Shown piece after piece: positions 17,746-64,000 of a DNA stretch of 64,000 nt; positions within the stretch are counted from its first letter, which is position 1; each line of letters opens with the position of its first letter. Made by a program: the position numbers and the translations under genes. The notes beneath the pieces are model-generated. The model made no database searches. It had not been told where the DNA came from and worked only from the letters and a program-made list of their open reading frames with translations. The stretch covers positions 558,001 through 622,000 of the forward strand of contig NZ_RKKE01000001.1 in NCBI RefSeq assembly GCF_003797125.1. The letters run 5' to 3'. Source of the stretch: Shewanella frigidimarina (GTDB lineage: Bacteria; Pseudomonadota; Gammaproteobacteria; Enterobacterales; Shewanellaceae).

Positions 17746-19881
17746 TTAAAAACTCATCTTTACTTTAACAGCAAAACTACGAGGTTCACCGATACGCAAT
17801 GCACCATAAGCATCACCCGCTGCCCAAAACTCTTCGTCGAATAAATTATCAACGGTACCAATAATGGTTAGCGTTTTGTCGTCAATCACCGTGCTATAGC
17901 TAACACCGGTGTAAAACAAAGTATAAGCAGGTAATTCCCAGGTATTATTAGAATCTAATGTTGTTTCACCAAAGTATTTGGCGCCTAAATTAACAGCTAA
18001 ACCAGGCACGGCATCGACCTCATAGTTAGTCTGCAAGCTAAACTGTTGACTTGGTGTACCAGCAACGTCATTGCCTTCCACCGCTGAATTTGTTTTGTCA
18101 TAGGTGGCATCCAATAACATCAAGTCACCGTATAGAGATAAATTATCAGTGACTTCCCATGCTCCACTAAATTCCAAACCTTGATAAATGCTAAGTCCAT
18201 CCTGTACTAAATAATTATCACCAGTAACCAGTGTGGCGCCTCGTTCGATGCGAAATAGTGCCGACGTTAAAGACCAACCATCACCAGCAGTTTTAACACC
18301 CAATTCATATTGCTTACTTTCTAATGGTTCTAGTAGCTCATCAGCGTTTGCGTAAGTCTCGCCAACATACGACGTTGTCCCCTCAAACGATTCAACATAG
18401 CTGACATAATATGTTGTTTTATCATCAGGTTTAAACATCAATGCAGCAGTAGGACTTAGGGCGCTGTCTTCATTGTAAGCTTGGTATGAAGAGAAATATT
18501 CGCTTGGCGTATGTTCAATTTGATTAGATCGAATACCGAGTAAGACTTCCCATTGATCGGTTAGCGAAATAAAGTCACTGAGATAAACCGATTGTTGTTT
18601 ATCAATCCAAGCCATAGATAGATTATCTTCTAAGGTTGAATTATAGGTTGGAAGCTCAACAGGATTAAACAGATTATCGGTTCCATAACCCCACATTACT
18701 ACGCGATGCGGATCATTCCGATACGTTGTAGACTTCTGATATGACGCACCTAACAACAGGTTGTGTCGAATGCTACCGGTTTCAAACTCACCGTTAATCA
18801 CAGCCTGAATTTGATCATAATTAACATCAAAATACTGGTCATATAAAGAAATATTAACATCACCATCACTATTGAGTAAGTAGGCTAAGCTTTTTACCCA
18901 ACGAGTCTCATTCTTAGAATAATCATACTCAAGACGAGCACTCCAGTTATCATTAATGTCCCAATTTAGGCTGGTTAACGCTACGATATTTTTGTAATCA
19001 TCGAAGGTACCGTCAGCTCCAATACTGCGAGTACCGCTAACGGTATCAGGAAGCAAATCAGTACTGTCTAACGAATTATTCATTGTAGTCCATGAATTTT
19101 CAGTTAAGCGATCGTTATAAATAACATCAACAGTCCAATAAAGTGAATCGGTTAATTGTGCGTCAAATGCTAAAGCTGCAGTATTACGATCAATTGTGCC
19201 ATCTTCTAAATACGTGTCGCCCGACTCTTTAACAAGGTTGACCCTAACACCATACTCATCGTTATCACCTAAACGCTTACTGGCATCAATATGGCCACTA
19301 AATACACTGTCACTGCGTATGCCAACATCAACAATAAATTTATCGTCTGTTGCTTTTTTGGTCACATAGTTAACAACTCCACCAGGTGCAGCCATCCCAT
19401 ACATGAAGCCAGAGGCTCCTTTTAGTAAGGTAACTTGCTCGAAGGCTTCATAGGGAAGTTCACCACTAAAATTATTGATAGACATACCATTAATTTTAAA
19501 ACTATTGGTATAGTCTAAAGGTAAGCCACGAACACGAATAGTTGAGCCAAAGGTACTGTAAGCACTACCATCAACCGATACAGACGCTTCTCTACTAAAA
19601 AGACTATCCAGAGTATTAACCTGGCGGATTTCTATATCTTCAAGTGAAATAACATCTACTGAAAAAGGGGTTTCTAATAAGGTTTTATTACCCAAGGCTC
19701 CACCATTATTATTAGAACTCAGCTCGGTCAGTTTATGGCCCACCACACTAATGGTTTCAATACTGCCTTTCGTCTCTTCTACGTTTTCCTCCCCTATAGC
19801 AGAGTAACTATTCAAAGAGAGTGCAGAAGCACATACAACAGCCAATTTACATTTATTAAACTGTAAAGTATTGATTTTCAT
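17746..19881 (-). CDS. TonB-dependent ferrisiderophore receptor
   Basis: This 711-residue outer-membrane receptor has a signal peptide (about 1-30) and a TonB-box-like ETISVVG. The plug domain (about 60-165) has IRVRGLPLDY, the siderophore-type EQVTLLKGASGFMYGMAAPGG and VNYVTKKA. The 22-strand barrel region ends with the expected terminal Phe (VKMSF). The ligand cannot be read from sequence. The ATG at 19881 (MKINTLQF) has GGA at workable spacing; the ATG at 19893 lacks a ribosome site. A putative Fur box lies about 100 bp upstream. It heads the operon with the two small membrane proteins and the PepSY reductase. Confidence 0.93.
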   Translation of the reverse strand: MKINTLQFNKCKLAVVCASALSLNSYSAIGEENVEETKGSIETISVVGHKLTELSSNNNGGALGNKTLLETPFSVDVISLEDIEIRQVNTLDSLFSREASVSVDGSAYSTFGSTIRVRGLPLDYTNSFKINGMSINNFSGELPYEAFEQVTLLKGASGFMYGMAAPGGVVNYVTKKATDDKFIVDVGIRSDSVFSGHIDASKRLGDNDEYGVRVNLVKESGDTYLEDGTIDRNTAALAFDAQLTDSLYWTVDVIYNDRLTENSWTTMNNSLDSTDLLPDTVSGTRSIGADGTFDDYKNIVALTSLNWDINDNWSARLEYDYSKNETRWVKSLAYLLNSDGDVNISLYDQYFDVNYDQIQAVINGEFETGSIRHNLLLGASYQKSTTYRNDPHRVVMWGYGTDNLFNPVELPTYNSTLEDNLSMAWIDKQQSVYLSDFISLTDQWEVLLGIRSNQIEHTPSEYFSSYQAYNEDSALSPTAALMFKPDDKTTYYVSYVESFEGTTSYVGETYANADELLEPLESKQYELGVKTAGDGWSLTSALFRIERGATLVTGDNYLVQDGLSIYQGLEFSGAWEVTDNLSLYGDLMLLDATYDKTNSAVEGNDVAGTPSQQFSLQTNYEVDAVPGLAVNLGAKYFGETTLDSNNTWELPAYTLFYTGVSYSTVIDDKTLTIIGTVDNLFDEEFWAAGDAYGALRIGEPRSFAVKVKMSF

Positions 19882-57064: not shown

Positions 57065-59914
57065 TTAAATCGCTAAAATTTCATTATAAATTTCAATTAC
57101 ACTGTCCGTTTTTTGCTGCACACTTTGTGTGGGTAATTTGCCAGGCAACTGTTGTAATGTCAGTTCATGATTCTCGTCACGCAGCCAGCAATAGGTTTGG
57201 GTTAAATGCTGGGCTTGCATGATAGGCAATAACTCCAGCTCCGCCAACACTTCAAAAATGCGTACATTATCAGACCAAATAGTTAATTCATGATATTGAT
57301 GAGCATTCGCTAGCACTAAGTATTGAGCAATAAACTCTATATCGGCAATACCACCAGCACTCTGTTTTAGATCAAATTGCCCTGGCTCCACTTGCAACAA
57401 ATGCTCGCGCATTTTTATGCGCATGTCTTTGACGGCTTTAGCCAATACCTGTTTATCACGCTCTATTTGTAATACTTGCGCGCGTAAATCACTAAAACGA
57501 CCTGCAAGCGAATAATCACCAAACACAAAACGTGACCGCACTAATGCTTGATGCTCCCAGGTCCACGCTTCTTGTTGTAAATAGGCACCAAAATGCTCAA
57601 TCTCACTCACCAATAAACCAGAAGCACCAGACGGACGTAAACGCATGTCTACTTCATATAACTCACCGGATGTTGTGCGGGTAGCAAATAAATGCACAAT
57701 ACGCTGAGCCAACTTCAGGTAGAAATGGCCATTATCAATAGGACGCTTACCATCGGTGGTACCCGAACCGGTGTGGCCGTGTAAAAAAACCAAATCTAAA
57801 TCAGAACCGTAACCCAGTTCAATCCCACCTAACTTACCGTATCCAATGACGGCAAATCCCATGTTACTTGGACTCGTTTCTGCCGGTATGCCATGGCGAG
57901 ATGCCACCTGATGCCAAGCTTGTAACACCACTTGTTCAATAATGGCTTCAGCTAAAAAGGTTAAATGATCGCTAACCTGCATAACCGGTAATACCCCAGT
58001 AACATCAGCGGCCGCAATCTTCAGCTGCTGAGACAGTTTAAACTGCCGCAACGCTTCCATTTGCTGTTCCATGTCATCTTCGGGTACACGCAACAAATAC
58101 TGACGTAATTCGCTCGGGTAATCATCAATCGAGGTAATGTCATACAATTGCGACGGATCAATCAACTCATCGAGCAACATTGGAAAATTAGCCAGCTCGC
58201 GGGCAATCCAAGGGCTTGCACAACACAAACTCACTAATTGTTGTCTAGCACCTGGGTTTTCACATAAAAGCTCTAGATAGGTGGTACGGGTTAAAATTTT
58301 ATCCAGCACTTTGGCTACCGGTTTAAACGCTTGGCTCGGTTTAGTTTGAGTCACTAACTCTTCAAGCAACTTAGGCATTAACTTGTCTAAAGTCTCACGC
58401 CCTCGCGGTCCGATAGAACGTTTAGACACAGTTTGACGCCACTCACTCAGCAGCTGCCATAATTCTGCATCATCGACTTGTTGCTCTTGCAGCAATGCTT
58501 TAGCATGTTCATCTTGCTGCACATTCCAAAATAAAGCAGTCCAATGGTCATTATGTTCATGACTATCAGTACCACCGACCGTGGCATTGAAATGGCCATG
58601 AATAGTGACCATTGCTTGATTAATTTTTTGACGAAGTTCGACTTCATCAGCCATGTCTAGCGGATAACATAAACGCTGCCAATCGAGCTCATTATTAGGC
58701 AGAGTTTGCGTTTGTTTATCATCAATGGCTTGCAACAAGTTTTCCACTCGGCGCAATATAATATAACTGTGTTTAAGCTCATCAACGGCTAAGTATTCCA
58801 ACTGCCCTAAGCTGTATAAGGTATCAATAGCACCAAATAGACTTTGCTGACGCAATGCAGGTTCGCGTCCACCACGTATCAACTGAAAACTCTGCACCAC
58901 GAATTCGACTTCACGGATCCCGCCGGCACCGAGTTTAATATTGTCGGTTAATTGTCGACGCCTGACTTCTTGGGCAATAAGTTGCTTCATTTTACGCAAT
59001 GATTCAATCGCAGAAAAATCAATATAGCGACGATAAACAAAAGGTCGCAGTAAATCATGCAACTCATCGCAATAGCCAGACCAAGGTCCAAGCACTCGCG
59101 CTTTGACCATGGCATAACGTTCCCAATCACGGCCTTGTTCTTGGTAATAGTCTTCTAAACCACTAAAACTGACCACTAAAGGACCACTTTCACCATAAGG
59201 TCGTAAACGCATGTCGACACGGAACACAAATCCATCAACGGTGACTTGGTCGAGTAAATTCACCAAGCGTTGACCCATACGGATGAAAAATTGCTGATTT
59301 GCCTGAGTGCGTCGACCACCAACGGTCTCACCATGTTCTGGAAAGGTAAAAATTAAGTCGATGTCTGATGAAAAGTTAAGTTCACGGCCACCCAGTTTAC
59401 CCATGCCTAAAATCAGCAACGGCTGTGGATTGCCTTCAGCACTTGTTGGCGTACCGTATTGCTGACACATCTCTTGATACAGCCAATCTCGCCCAGCAAT
59501 CACCAATGCTTCAGCCAGTGCAGATAAGTCGAGAAGTGATTCTTCTACTGGGGTGTAATTTAAGAAGTCACGCCATGCTAAGCGCACCATTTGCAGATTA
59601 CGATAACGACGTAAGGCAGACTTAACCAGCTCTTCTTGTGTCAAGTCCGCTATCAGCGAATGTAACTGCGCATCAAACTCACTGCGCACCACATCATCTA
59701 ATAGGCCATCAAATAACTGCACAATCCATTCTGGATGACGACAAAGCTGCTCACCCATATAGTCACTTAACCCAAACACGGCCGTTAACTCTTGCTGTTG
59801 CATGGCTGTCAGTGCTGTTTTAGCTTCCGGCCAAACGTCACAGAGTCTTAACCAGTAACGATCTGCGCTGTCTAACATCGCTGCAGATAATACTTTGTTA
59901 CCTTGGTTTTGCAT
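57065..59914 (-). CDS. glnE: Bifunctional glutamine synthetase adenylyltransferase/deadenylase
   Basis: This 949-residue enzyme controls glutamine synthetase by adding and removing AMP under PII control. The N-terminal deadenylase half has [24 protein letters not shown] (about 170-193) and the C-terminal adenylylase half has [21 protein letters not shown] (about 690-711), each with its nucleotidyltransferase Asp pair. [11 protein letters not shown] and [11 protein letters not shown] linkers are present. Full-length for the family. ATG at 59914. A 13-bp palindrome lies 34-46 bp upstream, at the divergent promoter of the yjf-type operon. Confidence 0.95.
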
Positions 59915-59944
59915 GGCAATAATGACCCCTAAAGAAAATGAACA

Positions 59945-59974
59945 TTGGACATATTATGTCGTGAATGGTATATC
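59945..59974 (+). promoter_or_regulatory. Putative promoter of the lipoprotein-DUF350-SpeE operon
   Basis: TTGGAC (59945-59950) and TATATC (59969-59974) are 18 bp apart. The -35 overlaps the palindrome at 59948-59960, so a bound regulator would block it. The untranslated leader would be roughly 100 nt. Confidence 0.5.
59948..59960. promoter_or_regulatory. Palindrome GACATATTATGTC (copy 1)
   Basis: A perfect 13-bp odd palindrome in the glnE/lipoprotein divergent region. The same sequence occurs twice before the DUF2170 gene at 63736 and 63770, and nowhere else that I noticed. Confidence 0.78.
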
Positions 59975-60077
59975 TATCAGTCAGTCAAATGATCAGATTA
60001 ATATCATTGACACTAAGATTACTATAACCTGTGTCATATTGAATTAGCACATGAAAAATCTACATTTTGGAGAAAAC

Positions 60078-61040
60078 ATGGTAGGTCACCTCCCCCGTGT
60101 ACTCACATTGATAACGGTATTGTTTGTCACGCTAGCCCTTGGCGGTTGCGGTGACGACAGACCGGAACAAATTGCTAAGTACCAGCAACTGACCCAACAA
60201 CGACTTGATCTGTTGGCTAGTTCGCTCGACAACAATCAGTTACGCAATGCGACGTTACTCAAACAATACACTCGAGTTCTCGCTCAGCGTCAATCCGACT
60301 TAACCCCATTACTAGAAGAATTGGCTAAAGATGCCAGCACTGAAGGACCAATGTTTAAGTCATTAACGCGTCGTTACAAAGACTTAAACGACAGCGCTAA
60401 TTTTATTGATTTAGACCAACAGTTAGCTGAAGCACAGAATATTTATCAAGCCGCTGACACCAGCTTGTATAACGATATGCTGTCCGACCCAGTCAATGTT
60501 GTTGCCGATATGTCTAAAGGGCAACTCGCCAGAGTGAATGCGATCAGTCGTGAAGCTGAAGCGCTTGCTAATGGAACCGACGGTAGCGGTGCAGGCAGTC
60601 AGCTGGTGGGTAACCCAGCTTATGGTAGCTGGCAAAACAATTCTAGTGGCACGTCGATTTGGGCTTGGTATGGCATGTATGCGATGTTTTCTAACTTCAC
60701 TCGCCCAATAGGTTACGACCGTTGGTCGGGAAATCGTGGTTACAGCTATTATAATGATGTAGGACGTTACCGTTATACCTCACCTAAACAAGCGACATCA
60801 CAAGCCAAAACCTTTGAACAAACCAAGAAACGTTTTAACAGCCAAGGGAAGCGATTCGACAGCCCTTATGCAAAAACTCGAACAGGTTCTACAAGCTTGT
60901 CGCGTCAAAGTGCTAGCGCACCTAAAGCCAGTAGTACCACTCAGAGCGCGAGTCGTAAATTCCGTTCGAGCTATTCAAAAGACAGCAGTTTCCGTAACTC
61001 AAGCAGCCGCACTAGTCGCGGTGTTAGCCGTGGAAAATAG
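60078..61040 (+). CDS. Putative lipoprotein of the yjf-type (DUF350/SpeE) operon
   Basis: This 320-residue protein has a lipobox (LGGC, Cys24). A helical region (about 30-170) is followed by a Gly/Tyr-rich stretch (SWQNNSSGTSIWAWYGMYAMFSNF, YDRWSGNRGYSYYNDVGRYRY) and a long basic Ser/Arg/Thr-rich tail with many SSR/SRK-like pairs. It resembles the lipoproteins found next to DUF350 genes (YjfM position). Function unknown; a surface or outer-membrane role is inferred. The ATG at 60078 has GGAG upstream and gives a proper signal peptide; the ATG at 60051 does not. Confidence 0.8.
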   Translation: MVGHLPRVLTLITVLFVTLALGGCGDDRPEQIAKYQQLTQQRLDLLASSLDNNQLRNATLLKQYTRVLAQRQSDLTPLLEELAKDASTEGPMFKSLTRRYKDLNDSANFIDLDQQLAEAQNIYQAADTSLYNDMLSDPVNVVADMSKGQLARVNAISREAEALANGTDGSGAGSQLVGNPAYGSWQNNSSGTSIWAWYGMYAMFSNFTRPIGYDRWSGNRGYSYYNDVGRYRYTSPKQATSQAKTFEQTKKRFNSQGKRFDSPYAKTRTGSTSLSRQSASAPKASSTTQSASRKFRSSYSKDSSFRNSSSRTSRGVSRGK

Positions 61041-61053
61041 GTAAGGACTCACC

Positions 61054-61953
61054 ATGACATTTTTTCAAGAATATGGCTTAACTCAACATTTGGCGATTAT
61101 TTTAGCCATTGATTTAACCATCGCCATCGTTTTACTGGCGCTAATGCGTTATTTGCAAGGCTGGAGTATTAAAGTCAACAGCAGTGCAGAGCTAGCAGAA
61201 CGTGACAATTTTGCATTTGGTATCAGTACCGCTGGTGCAATTGCTGCATTAGGGATTGTGCTTACAGGCGCCATTACCGGCGAGGCTGCACCGTCTTATT
61301 TAACCGAAGCTATTGGCATGTCCGCTTACGGCTTGTTTGGCTTAGTATTGATTAAATTAGGTCGCTTTTTGCATGATAAAATCGCCTTAAATGAATTTGC
61401 TAAAAATGCTGAAATTCTTAAAGGTAACGTGTCTGTTGCTGTGGTTGATGCCGCTGCAGCTATTGCTACAGCAATTATCATTCGCGCGGTCTTAATGTGG
61501 GCCGAAGACATTACTTTAGATACCTTCATTGCTATTTTTAGTGCCTTTTTGATCTCACAACTGATGTTAGTGATACTCACTCGATTACGTGAAAAACGTT
61601 ACGCTAAACGTAATCAAGATGCCTCAATGCAGCAAGCCTTAACTCAAGGTCAAACGGCATTAGCATTGCGCCATAGCGGCTACATGATAGCCATGGCGTT
61701 AAGCTTCAATGCGGCAAGCCATTTTATTGTTTATGACCCTACAGCCTATGTAACCAACATTATCGGTTGGTGTGTATTCTCATTGATAATGCTAGTGGTG
61801 TTATCGCTGCTGATCGCCTTAGTGAAAAAATTGGTGTTAGCCGGAATTAATCTTGCTGAGGAAGTCGAAAAGCAACACAACATAGGTATTGCAGCCGTTG
61901 AAATGGCGATTAGTATTGCCGTTGCTCTTATTCTTACGGCGTTAATGGCTTAA
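61054..61953 (+). CDS. yjfL: DUF350 family membrane protein (YjfL-like)
   Basis: This 299-residue protein has eight membrane helices in two DUF350 units. The first has FGISTAGAIAALGIVLTGAI and the second has LALRHSGYMIAMALSFNAASHFIVYDP. Most YjfL proteins are half this size, so this is a duplicated or fused form. DUF350 proteins cooccur with PspA, SpeE-like and glutathionylspermidine-synthase-like genes. AAGGA precedes the ATG. It is 13 bp after the lipoprotein gene and 3 bp before the SpeE gene. Confidence 0.87.
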   Translation: MTFFQEYGLTQHLAIILAIDLTIAIVLLALMRYLQGWSIKVNSSAELAERDNFAFGISTAGAIAALGIVLTGAITGEAAPSYLTEAIGMSAYGLFGLVLIKLGRFLHDKIALNEFAKNAEILKGNVSVAVVDAAAAIATAIIIRAVLMWAEDITLDTFIAIFSAFLISQLMLVILTRLREKRYAKRNQDASMQQALTQGQTALALRHSGYMIAMALSFNAASHFIVYDPTAYVTNIIGWCVFSLIMLVVLSLLIALVKKLVLAGINLAEEVEKQHNIGIAAVEMAISIAVALILTALMA

Positions 61954-61956
61954 TTT

Positions 61957-63717
61957 ATGACAACACCTTTGCTCGATGAACTTCCCACCAATACAACACT
62001 GGGGGACTCGCAGCAAAGTCCTCTATCATCCCGTCAAGTATCGAAGTTTGATGATGCCTTATTACTCGGCATCATGGCTTCGCTGGCGGGATGTGGCCTT
62101 ATCTATGAATATTTACTGTCACACTATGCCGGTCGAATTCTCGGCGCACTAGAAGCTGCCATTTACACCATGATTGGGTTAATGATTGTGTCTATGGGTG
62201 TGGGCGCATTTGCTGCCCGTAAAATAAAATGCGCGTTTACAGGCTTTGCCATGCTCGAATTAACCGTGGCACTGTGTGGCTCATTTGCCATTATCGTTAC
62301 CGCTGCCGTGATTGGATTTGGTCAACAACTTCCATTAACTATCGCCAATACATTGGGCTTGCCGCCCGATCATTTACCCAATGGTGGCTTTATTGCCAGC
62401 CTGCAAACCCTTAGTGAATTCTTACCTTATGTGTGGGGAGTATTGCTTGGGTTAATGATTGGCATGGAGATCCCACTTATTGCTCGAGTTCGGCAATCCT
62501 TATCTGAAGCACACTTACTGCATAATGCCGGCACCATATATGGTGCCGATTACATTGGTGCTGGTATCGGCGCCGCTATCTGGGTTGGTTTTATGTTGTC
62601 GATTGATGTTCAATTAGCAGCGGCATTAACCGCCAGTGTTAATTTACTCGCTGGGCTTGTATTTATTTGGCGATTTTGGGCACAGATCCGTCACGCTAAG
62701 TGGTTACTAATAGGCCATATTATTGCCAGCGTTGTGATTGGCTTACTCGCGGTAAAAGGCCCTAGCTGGGAACAGCATTTTAATAATCTATTATATAAAG
62801 ATCATGTGGTTTACGCTAAAGCAACACGGTTCCAGCAGCTCAACTTTACTGAACGTTTGCGCGGTGGCGAATTACCTCCGGTTTATAATTTATACATTAA
62901 TGGTCGTCTGCAATTTTCGAGCAGCGACGAGCATATTTATCACAGCTTCCTAGTGCATCCCACACTGGCTGCCAGCGCACGTCACGATAACGTGTTAATT
63001 ATTGGCGGTGGTGATGGCTTGGGGCTAAAACAAGTGCTCAAATGGCAACCAAAAGCCGTTACCTTAATGGATTTAGATAAAGACTTGCTGGCACTGTTTA
63101 AATCGCCTCCGGCAGATATGCCTAAGCACTTAAGAGATGCATTACTGGCGTTAAATGGTGATGCGTTAAACGATCCTCGCTTAACGCTTATGGTCGACGA
63201 TGCGTTTAACGGTGTCGATAAGCTAATTCAAAATGGCAAAATGTTTGATGCCATCATTGTTGACTTACCCGACCCAAGTCATCCAGACTTAAATAAACTT
63301 TATTCAGATTTATTTTATCGCAAGCTCAACGAGTTACTCAGCGCTGATGGCGTGATCACGGTGCAATCAACCTCACCTTACCATGCCCAAAAAGCATTTA
63401 TGTCGGTCGGAAAAACACTGACTGCGGCTGGATTTAATGTAAAGCAGTATCACCATAATGTCCCTAGCTTTGGTGAATGGGGCTGGAGCATTGGCAGTAA
63501 AATGGGTAAAAACCCGCAGCAACGATTGGCTGCAATAGATGAAATTCCGGTACCAGAAGAGTGGCTTACCCCAGGGCTTATCCACGCTTCATTTGAGTTT
63601 CCAAAGCACTTCTATGGCGATATAGACAACATTAAAGTAAATGAAATTGGCTCACTACAGCTGTATCACTACCATTTAGCGGCTTGGTCAGAAAACGAAG
63701 TAATTAATCTTTTTTAA
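61957..63717 (+). CDS. Membrane-anchored spermidine synthase-like protein
   Basis: This 586-residue protein joins about seven membrane helices (35-275) to a C-terminal polyamine aminopropyltransferase domain. The SAM-type site is VLIIGGGDGLGLKQVLKW (about 347-364) and the catalytic-loop counterpart is FDAIIVDLPDPSHPDLNKLYS (about 430). GGGDG and DLPDP are intact, so aminopropyl transfer or a related reaction is plausible, but the substrate and direction are not proven. It is nearly twice the length of cytoplasmic SpeE. The start ATG lies 3 bp after the DUF350 stop, so they are tightly coupled. Confidence 0.88.
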   Translation: MTTPLLDELPTNTTLGDSQQSPLSSRQVSKFDDALLLGIMASLAGCGLIYEYLLSHYAGRILGALEAAIYTMIGLMIVSMGVGAFAARKIKCAFTGFAMLELTVALCGSFAIIVTAAVIGFGQQLPLTIANTLGLPPDHLPNGGFIASLQTLSEFLPYVWGVLLGLMIGMEIPLIARVRQSLSEAHLLHNAGTIYGADYIGAGIGAAIWVGFMLSIDVQLAAALTASVNLLAGLVFIWRFWAQIRHAKWLLIGHIIASVVIGLLAVKGPSWEQHFNNLLYKDHVVYAKATRFQQLNFTERLRGGELPPVYNLYINGRLQFSSSDEHIYHSFLVHPTLAASARHDNVLIIGGGDGLGLKQVLKWQPKAVTLMDLDKDLLALFKSPPADMPKHLRDALLALNGDALNDPRLTLMVDDAFNGVDKLIQNGKMFDAIIVDLPDPSHPDLNKLYSDLFYRKLNELLSADGVITVQSTSPYHAQKAFMSVGKTLTAAGFNVKQYHHNVPSFGEWGWSIGSKMGKNPQQRLAAIDEIPVPEEWLTPGLIHASFEFPKHFYGDIDNIKVNEIGSLQLYHYHLAAWSENEVINLF

Positions 63718-63733
63718 TTGGATCAGATAGCGC

Positions 63734-63784
63734 TTGACATATTATGTCTAGATGCTATCTTTACTCACAGACATAATATGTCAA
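63734..63784. promoter_or_regulatory. Double palindrome upstream of DUF2170 gene
   Basis: Arms TTGACATATTATGTCT (63734-63749) and AGACATAATATGTCAA (63769-63784) are perfect reverse complements 19 bp apart. Each contains the 13-bp palindrome (63736-63748 and 63770-63782). TTGACA at 63734 and TATCTT at 63756 could be the promoter, placed relative to the palindrome as in copy 1. Confidence 0.82.
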
Positions 63785-63796
63785 TTAAGGACGAAT

Positions 63797-64000
63797 ATGA
63801 ACATCCATACTATTGCAGGTCACCTAAACGGACTGTGCGATCAAAGCAAAACCGGTTTTCAGTTTGATTGTTATCCAATTGACGGTGATGTTGAAGTGTT
63901 ACAAGTCAATATTGTCGGCCGAGAAGAAATTCCGGTGTTTGTATCAGTAACTGACAACCAAATATTGTGTATCAGTTATTTGTGGGGCGAAAACGAAGTA
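63797..64000 (+). CDS. yjfI: DUF2170 family protein (YjfI-like), 3' end off window
   Basis: The first 68 residues (MNIHTIAGHLNGLCDQSKTG, then FDCYPIDGDVEVLQVNIVGREEIPVFVSVTDNQILCISYLWGENEV) match DUF2170. In enterics yjfI heads yjfIJKLMC with a PspA-like YjfJ, so a PspA homologue is expected just past the right edge. AAGGA lies at good spacing before the ATG at 63797, with the double palindrome directly upstream. Confidence 0.87.
   Translation, partial: MNIHTIAGHLNGLCDQSKTGFQFDCYPIDGDVEVLQVNIVGREEIPVFVSVTDNQILCISYLWGENEV

Follow-up and report, generated by a model that had tools for sequence, protein, structure and literature searches.

A palindrome shared by two neighbouring promoters

Towards the end of the 64,000-nucleotide stretch of DNA analysed here (the window), which its closest named proteins and loci assign to the genus Shewanella, a lipoprotein-DUF350-SpeE operon is followed by an operon that begins with a DUF2170 gene and continues past the window with genes for a PspA/IM30 protein (PF04012, E=7.7e-41), a DUF4178-like protein (below the Pfam cut-off), a protein of 111 amino acids (aa) and an ion channel. 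The promoters of both operons contain a 13-bp palindrome, GACATAWTATGTC, once before the lipoprotein gene and twice before the DUF2170 gene (Table 1), as a first-pass annotation of this DNA had pointed out. The evidence presented below makes it very probable that this palindrome is the operator of the 111-aa protein, a predicted tandem ribbon-helix-helix (RHH) protein, which would repress the lipoprotein-DUF350-SpeE and DUF2170-PspA operons, htpX and an nfeD-slipin operon as a single inner-membrane stress regulon.

The matching register of the two promoters, also noted at first pass, holds on closer measurement: the -10-like hexamers start 21 bp (TATATC, 59969) and 20 bp (TATCTT, 63756) after the start of the site, and each is preceded by TGN. 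The combination of TGNTAT with the site stands out in the consensus of both promoters among the named loci described below, built from 77 sites at the lipoprotein promoter and from the 67 doublets with 34-bp spacing at the DUF2170 promoter; a script that takes the best single -10 hexamer gives a less clear picture, with an offset of 20 in 40 of the 80 doublets and of 21 in 19 of the 77 lipoprotein-promoter sites.

The palindrome is rare and its distribution is not random. The 4.78-Mb genome to which the window belongs (the own genome) holds six exact copies, against 0.12-0.28 expected from the window's composition and none for a reversed control pattern; three of the six lie in the window, where 0.002-0.004 exact matches would be expected per 64 kb, and the others stand one each at htpX, at nfeD-slipin and at a gene for a small predicted membrane protein. 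When one mismatch is allowed, the own genome yields 13 matches of this type versus 3 for the control, and at up to two mismatches the window holds four, an unremarkable number (shuffle mean 1.96, with 12 of 100 shuffles reaching four). Throughout the genus, 60 of 60 genomes searched, drawn from a larger group, carry from 4 to 9 exact copies (363 in total), compared with two matches in total for the reversed control. A chance origin was thus rejected for the exact sites, while looser ones may well be due to chance: when GACATWWWATGTC is matched with one mismatch, 30 sites are found versus 22 for its control, and because this count is so near the control, exact sites alone were used, together with variants read at the operon itself. 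A one-mismatch copy in the window, GACATAATATGTT at 18403-18415, lies inside an open reading frame (ORF) that by inspection resembles a TonB-dependent receptor, and is probably due to chance.

Conservation was followed in the best 80 of 264 relatives of the RHH protein in named genomes, all Shewanella or Parashewanella by title (the named loci). The DUF2170 promoter has an exact doublet in 80 of 80, spaced by 34 bp in 67 and by 33-38 bp in the rest, and the lipoprotein promoter has an exact single site in 76 of the 80, the gene not being found in one; the motif is therefore conserved upstream of the orthologous operons. Neither of the two outcomes named at first pass as refuting the idea, a frequent motif at random places or a lack of conservation at orthologous operons, was thus observed.

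Table 1. Positions of the operator copies, promoter elements and genes of the two operons (window coordinates)
Feature	Position	Strand	Basis or remark
Operator copy 1 (GACATATTATGTC)	59948..59960	.	Exact match; upstream of lipoprotein-DUF350-SpeE operon
-35-like hexamer TTGGAC, overlaps operator copy 1	59945..59950	+	Sequence; TGGACA one base later is an alternative
Extended -10-like element TGG-TATATC	59966..59974	+	Sequence; consensus of named loci
Lipoprotein gene	60078..61040	+	ORF; label from inspection and Ravi et al.
DUF350 membrane protein (YjfL-like)	61054..61953	+	PF03994 E=3.4e-38
Membrane protein with C-terminal spermine/spermidine-synthase domain	61957..63717	+	PF01564 E=1.8e-32
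-35 hexamer TTGACA, overlaps operator copy 2	63734..63739	+	Sequence
Operator copy 2 (GACATATTATGTC)	63736..63748	.	Exact match
Extended -10-like element TGC-TATCTT, 16 bp after -35	63753..63761	+	Sequence; consensus
Operator copy 3 (GACATAATATGTC), at or just after predicted transcription start	63770..63782	.	Exact match
DUF2170 (YjfI/BacA-like) gene, first of DUF2170-PspA-DUF4178-RHH operon	63797..64000, continues past window	+	PF09938
Candidate RHH gene, fourth of DUF2170 operon, 111-aa product	65594-65929 (contig C1:623594-623929)		1.6 kb past window end

The first gene of the lipoprotein operon probably starts at the ATG listed, preceded by GGAG at 60069-60072, rather than at 60051; its product has no Pfam match. 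On the other side of operator 1, in 57065-59947, the divergent glnE (PF03710) starts 33 bp from the site, which might control it as well. Loci of the families f11 and f12 likewise have a divergent 950-aa ORF beside the operon.

Targets of the site beyond the window

Targets were surveyed at 83 loci, three of the own genome and 80 others, the latter being the listed sites outside the DUF2170 locus in 12 Shewanella genomes and 16 further ones, plus a duplicate DUF2170 locus (L099); as more sites exist, the counts are of at least this size. In the own genome the distance from the site to the gene downstream of it is 46 bp for htpX, 96 bp for the small membrane-protein gene and, depending on the choice of start codon, 24-60 bp for the nfeD-slipin operon. 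A start codon lies within 250 bp of the site in 77 of the 83 loci, and of the six without one, two (L154 and L176) are htpX genes under antisense ORFs and a third is the DUF2170 copy L099.

The most frequent target is htpX, in 21 of the 83 loci (clustering gave 19, and tblastn added L154 and L176), followed by nfeD in 17 (16 by clustering, and L115) and once more behind a 73-aa ORF (L136). The other targets include a band-7 slipin reached directly (3 loci), a 169-194-aa protein without a Pfam match (7), the Na+/H+ antiporter NhaA (4) and an M16 peptidase (4), one member of each family having been checked against Pfam. The site is found at htpX in 13 of 13 Shewanella genomes and at nfeD in 12 of 13, the thirteenth (G037) having one unlisted site. 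The shared operator proposed at first pass is thus strongly supported, but its reading as a regulon of polyamine synthase, DUF350 and YjfI, associated with PspA, has to be widened: the theme is the inner membrane, not mainly polyamines, with htpX and nfeD-slipin as the other recurring targets.

One genome (G215) carries two exact sites 1.1 kb apart (L147), one of which precedes, by 117 bp, a PspA-family gene that is not part of the DUF2170 operon, so that here the RHH regulator may run that extra psp gene too. The own genome also holds a second PspA-family gene (C13:858717-859361, L293), and hence two PspA paralogues.

At htpX the site occupies another position in the promoter. The arrangement TTGA-N16-TATTAT, with the -10-like hexamer inside the site and in the TATTAT orientation, is present in 21 of 21 htpX loci (a script read 19; at L097 and L112, where it had chosen a nearer TTGAA, the arrangement was read by eye). 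In consequence, the overlap with the -35 claimed at first pass holds at both window promoters and fails as a rule for the regulon. The presence of CCCTTGAA led us to weigh control of htpX by the heat-shock factor sigma32, and the S. oneidensis gene (SO2728) does appear, with its stretch in another register, among the genes predicted under sigma32 in Table 1 of a review (PMC3168786). Against this stand the spacing to GGACAT, of about 11 bp versus 13-15 in the published Shewanella consensus, and the retention of TTGA-N16-TATTAT in every htpX locus, and we lean towards a sigma70-type promoter, dual sigma70/sigma32 control being also possible.

A candidate regulator and its company with the site

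The regulator had been said to lie outside the window, and the likely candidate is found not far beyond its end, in the DUF2170 operon itself, where the RHH gene is the sole member with a predicted DNA-binding fold. Two AlphaFold2 models give the 111-aa protein strand-helix-helix twice, that is, a tandem RHH unit, at moderate confidence, and a second look at the structural matches places TraY, single-chain Arc and AvtR at the top of the list, below significance. Among the relatives of the protein, some are named ribbon-helix-helix in UniRef, and of six preselected for a NikA-like match (6 of 120 listed), NikA being an RHH protein, one passes the cut-off of that profile and five fall just under it. 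Two residues in or beside the predicted strands, Q22 and R66, are invariant in 72 of 72 aligned relatives with identities down to 33%, and S70 varies once. The final gene of such operons has been called RHH in some cases, independently (Ravi et al. 2024, PMC11237479).

The site accompanies this gene from genome to genome. In 247 genomes of the order, 77 have the RHH gene, 74 at least one exact site and 58 at least two; two or more sites occur in 56 of the 77 genomes with the gene versus 2 of the 170 without it, and one or more in 61 of 77 versus 13 of 170. For two or more sites the Fisher test gives 3e-35, a value which ignores relatedness, and the count by genus is 14 of 16 versus 1 of 71. 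The same relation is seen within families: in f6, two or more sites are present in 7 of 7 genomes with the gene and in 0 of 11 without it (with a single site in one of the 11), and in f7 the gene is confined to G177, which is also the only genome of that family with sites (two, at the RHH operon). As for the two genomes with two sites and no RHH gene, G139 has no relative of any regulon gene near its sites, and in G166 only 150 bp of contig follow pspA, so that the RHH gene may be missing from the assembly alone.

A sample of 369 genomes of the class agrees with this, the RHH gene being found in 13, the site in 13 and both in 9; two or more sites occur in 7 of 13 genomes with the gene versus 0 of 356 without it, and at least one in 9 of 13 versus 4 of 356. 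Of the four with the gene and no exact site, two are f102 genomes with a variant pair, and the stretches taken from the other two showed no DUF2170. In other orders, 11 genomes with sites were opened at 13 places, seven of them at the DUF2170-PspA-RHH operon, with DUF2170 called in six (at the GC-rich L314 only PspA and RHH were called, and at L302 the RHH gene is on another contig). All five exact pairs in these orders stand at DUF2170, spaced by 15, 18 or 46 bp. Palindromes nearly side by side, with 15 or 18 bp between starts, are seen at L303:3886-3913 and L306:5159-5189, compared with mostly 34 bp in Shewanella, and a pair of repressors would have to tolerate these very different spacings.

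Several results weigh against the assignment of the site to the RHH protein or against the regulon as drawn here. (i) The fold is uncertain: the models have a mean pLDDT (predicted local distance difference test) of 73 and a pTM (predicted template modelling score) of 0.56-0.58, residues 14-24 with strand 1 fall below 50 in the second model, Foldseek with the models gave no significant match (best E 0.27), and helix-turn-helix chains come first in the list for the second model, which also includes RHH chains, so that other families are possible; the protein of the own genome lies below every Pfam cut-off, and its sequence retrieved nothing usable from solved structures. (ii) Some sites and genes do not pair up: no target is in reach at L111 (no start within 250 bp), L117 (inside a 1196-aa ORF) and L156, the latter coming, like L173 and L174, from a genome without the RHH gene; the lipoprotein gene has no site in the tested stretch at 3 of the 80 named loci (at L241 an exact site lies farther up); and six of the 13 places in other orders are unrelated to the operon. 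(iii) The genomes with the RHH gene and fewer than two exact sites number 21, namely 17 in f11, of which 16 have no exact site, and four in f25, each with one exact site, at htpX (4 of 4); moreover, no operon site was seen in f17, f23, f59 and f144, where the contig ends or DUF2170 is outside the stretch taken. (iv) DUF2170 is present in 106 of the 247 genomes, including all 77 with the RHH gene, and of the 29 with DUF2170 and no RHH gene only G166 has two or more sites; six others of these were opened and carry a different operon class, so that the profile cannot tell the RHH gene apart from the other genes of its operon.

Genomes with DUF2170 and no RHH gene had been considered a clean control, a role weakened by this last result. 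In DUF2170-PspA operons of that kind, a small gene lies divergent to DUF2170, similar from one to the other (L298:7945-8202 and L299:6518-6793; KGIKYQDLS/KGVQYKYLS), and is a candidate regulator of that other operon class.

Variants of the operator bear on the families named above. In f11, GACATTWAATGTC lies between the -10-like element and DUF2170, 17-20 bp before the latter, with TTGACATATAATG upstream; it was seen in 6 of 6 loci read, and a subsequent search of 10 genomes recovered it exactly once in each, always at the operon that carries the RHH gene, which suggests the same architecture in a shifted sequence. In f25, one-mismatch sites stand near DUF2170 or PspA in both loci read, and in f102, CCCATAWTATGTC occurs twice at the operon, one half-site being changed in both copies (L328:4209-4254 and L329:3410-3455), a variant useful for studying what sets the specificity of the protein. 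Altogether, an operator, whether exact, with one mismatch or variant, is seen at the own operon in 16 of the 20 families with the RHH gene.

An alternative explanation is that the site is a genuine shared operator bound by another transcription factor, encoded elsewhere, and that the RHH protein does something else. The joint inheritance of the gene and the operon speaks for it, since the profile points to an operon class rather than to one gene; however, site and gene track each other down to one single genome within f7 and through the variant operators, and both the f11 variant, once per genome at the RHH operon, and the pairs of other orders, always at DUF2170, are the usual mark of autoregulation, all of which makes this explanation improbable. 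Autoregulation was probably the ancestral condition of the DUF2170-PspA-RHH operon, in whose control htpX, nfeD and others would have been included later in Shewanella and some relatives.

Proposed control and comparison with known systems

The half-site, GACAT, is asymmetric and the two strands of one RHH chain differ, so the simplest arrangement would be two chains per palindrome, one for each half-site. Bound in this way, the repressor would keep RNA polymerase from the -35 in the DUF2170 and lipoprotein operons, from the start site at the second DUF2170 copy or from the -10 at htpX, and the DUF2170-PspA-RHH operon would be autorepressed. Membrane damage could then relieve the repression via PspA or the chaperone-like DUF2170 protein, the least certain step; in the short RHH-type protein itself no sensor domain is recognised.

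That the effect is repression is suggested by the positions of the sites, whose registers differ, each over another promoter element, as a repressor would tolerate and an activator would not. It is very improbable that the RHH protein binds the site and activates: RHH activators such as AmrZ exist, and where the site covers the -35, at the DUF2170 and lipoprotein promoters, it lies close to the usual position of class II activators, but the htpX copies cover the -10-like hexamer throughout and the predicted start site is occupied by the second copy at DUF2170, and neither of these fits activation. The chance that the dyad acts instead in RNA, as a hairpin or terminator between SpeE and DUF2170, or belongs to a dispersed repeat, is negligible, for although the doublet is, as noted at first pass, a perfect dyad with 16-bp arms (63734-63749 and 63769-63784, exact reverse complements), this is a by-product of two sites, each itself palindromic; no run of T follows it, the predicted start at the second arm would leave the hairpin out of the transcript of the DUF2170 promoter, single 13-bp copies with differing flanks stand upstream of other genes, and 14 of the 80 Shewanella and Parashewanella doublets, with central bases other than T followed by A, are imperfect dyads.

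If repression by the RHH protein is accepted, the widespread and little-studied DUF2170-PspA systems of the class Gammaproteobacteria gain a likely dedicated regulator with its operator, and PspA, HtpX and NfeD-slipin are tied into one predicted regulon. The question of what DUF2170 does becomes a direct one, namely whether DUF2170 or PspA releases the repressor, and a test of the prediction should cost little, the operator being short, exact and limited to a few sites in each genome. A wider picture, offered as tentative and more doubtful than secure, would be that of a second mode of Psp control, independent of sigma54. Its RHH repressor would have arisen together with the DUF2170-PspA operon, would now be found in some 20 families of Gammaproteobacteria and would sense the membrane by way of PspA or of the secretion-chaperone-like DUF2170 protein, which titrates it; in Shewanella and its kin it would have captured htpX, nfeD-slipin, nhaA and other membrane genes into one quality-control regulon.

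Among tandem RHH-type proteins, TraY of the F relaxosome, AvtR and single-chain Arc have no significant sequence or Foldseek similarity to the 111-aa protein, and their targets and roles differ from those proposed here. The operon with its RHH gene is already in print, while the operator and the regulon do not appear in the open-licence PubMed Central literature searched. Ravi et al. (2024, PMC11237479) describe a CesT/Tir(DUF2170)-PspA operon with a spermine-synthase-like protein, DUF350, a lipoprotein, DUF4178 and an RHH gene, the same gene set as here (example accessions AAN56744-AAN56747); their main text does not mention htpX, NfeD, palindromes or operators, has "binding site" only in a reference, and no description of a regulon was found there.

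The bac operon of P. aeruginosa shares the DUF2170-PspA pair, as BacA and BacB respectively (PMC10948618). Mutation of bacA raises the other Bac proteins by factors of 6.1 to 13.5 (PMC10948618), so that the DUF2170 protein has a negative effect on that operon, and for this reason DUF2170 or PspA would be the first candidates to relay the signal to the repressor. A sigma54 site has been proposed there, and the main text of that paper makes no mention of ribbon, RHH or repressor; at the two window promoters no sigma54-like site was found, and a loose one is present at the DUF2170 promoter in 5 of the 80 named loci.

Finally, the Psp system of E. coli (PspF, sigma54, pspABCDE; PMC10948618) likewise places a PspA-family effector under dedicated control. 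In contrast to it, the Shewanella operon has no recognised activator gene and a promoter of the form TTGACA-16-TATCTT, its regulator is likely to be a repressor instead of an enhancer-binding activator, and its predicted regulon takes in htpX and nfeD-slipin.

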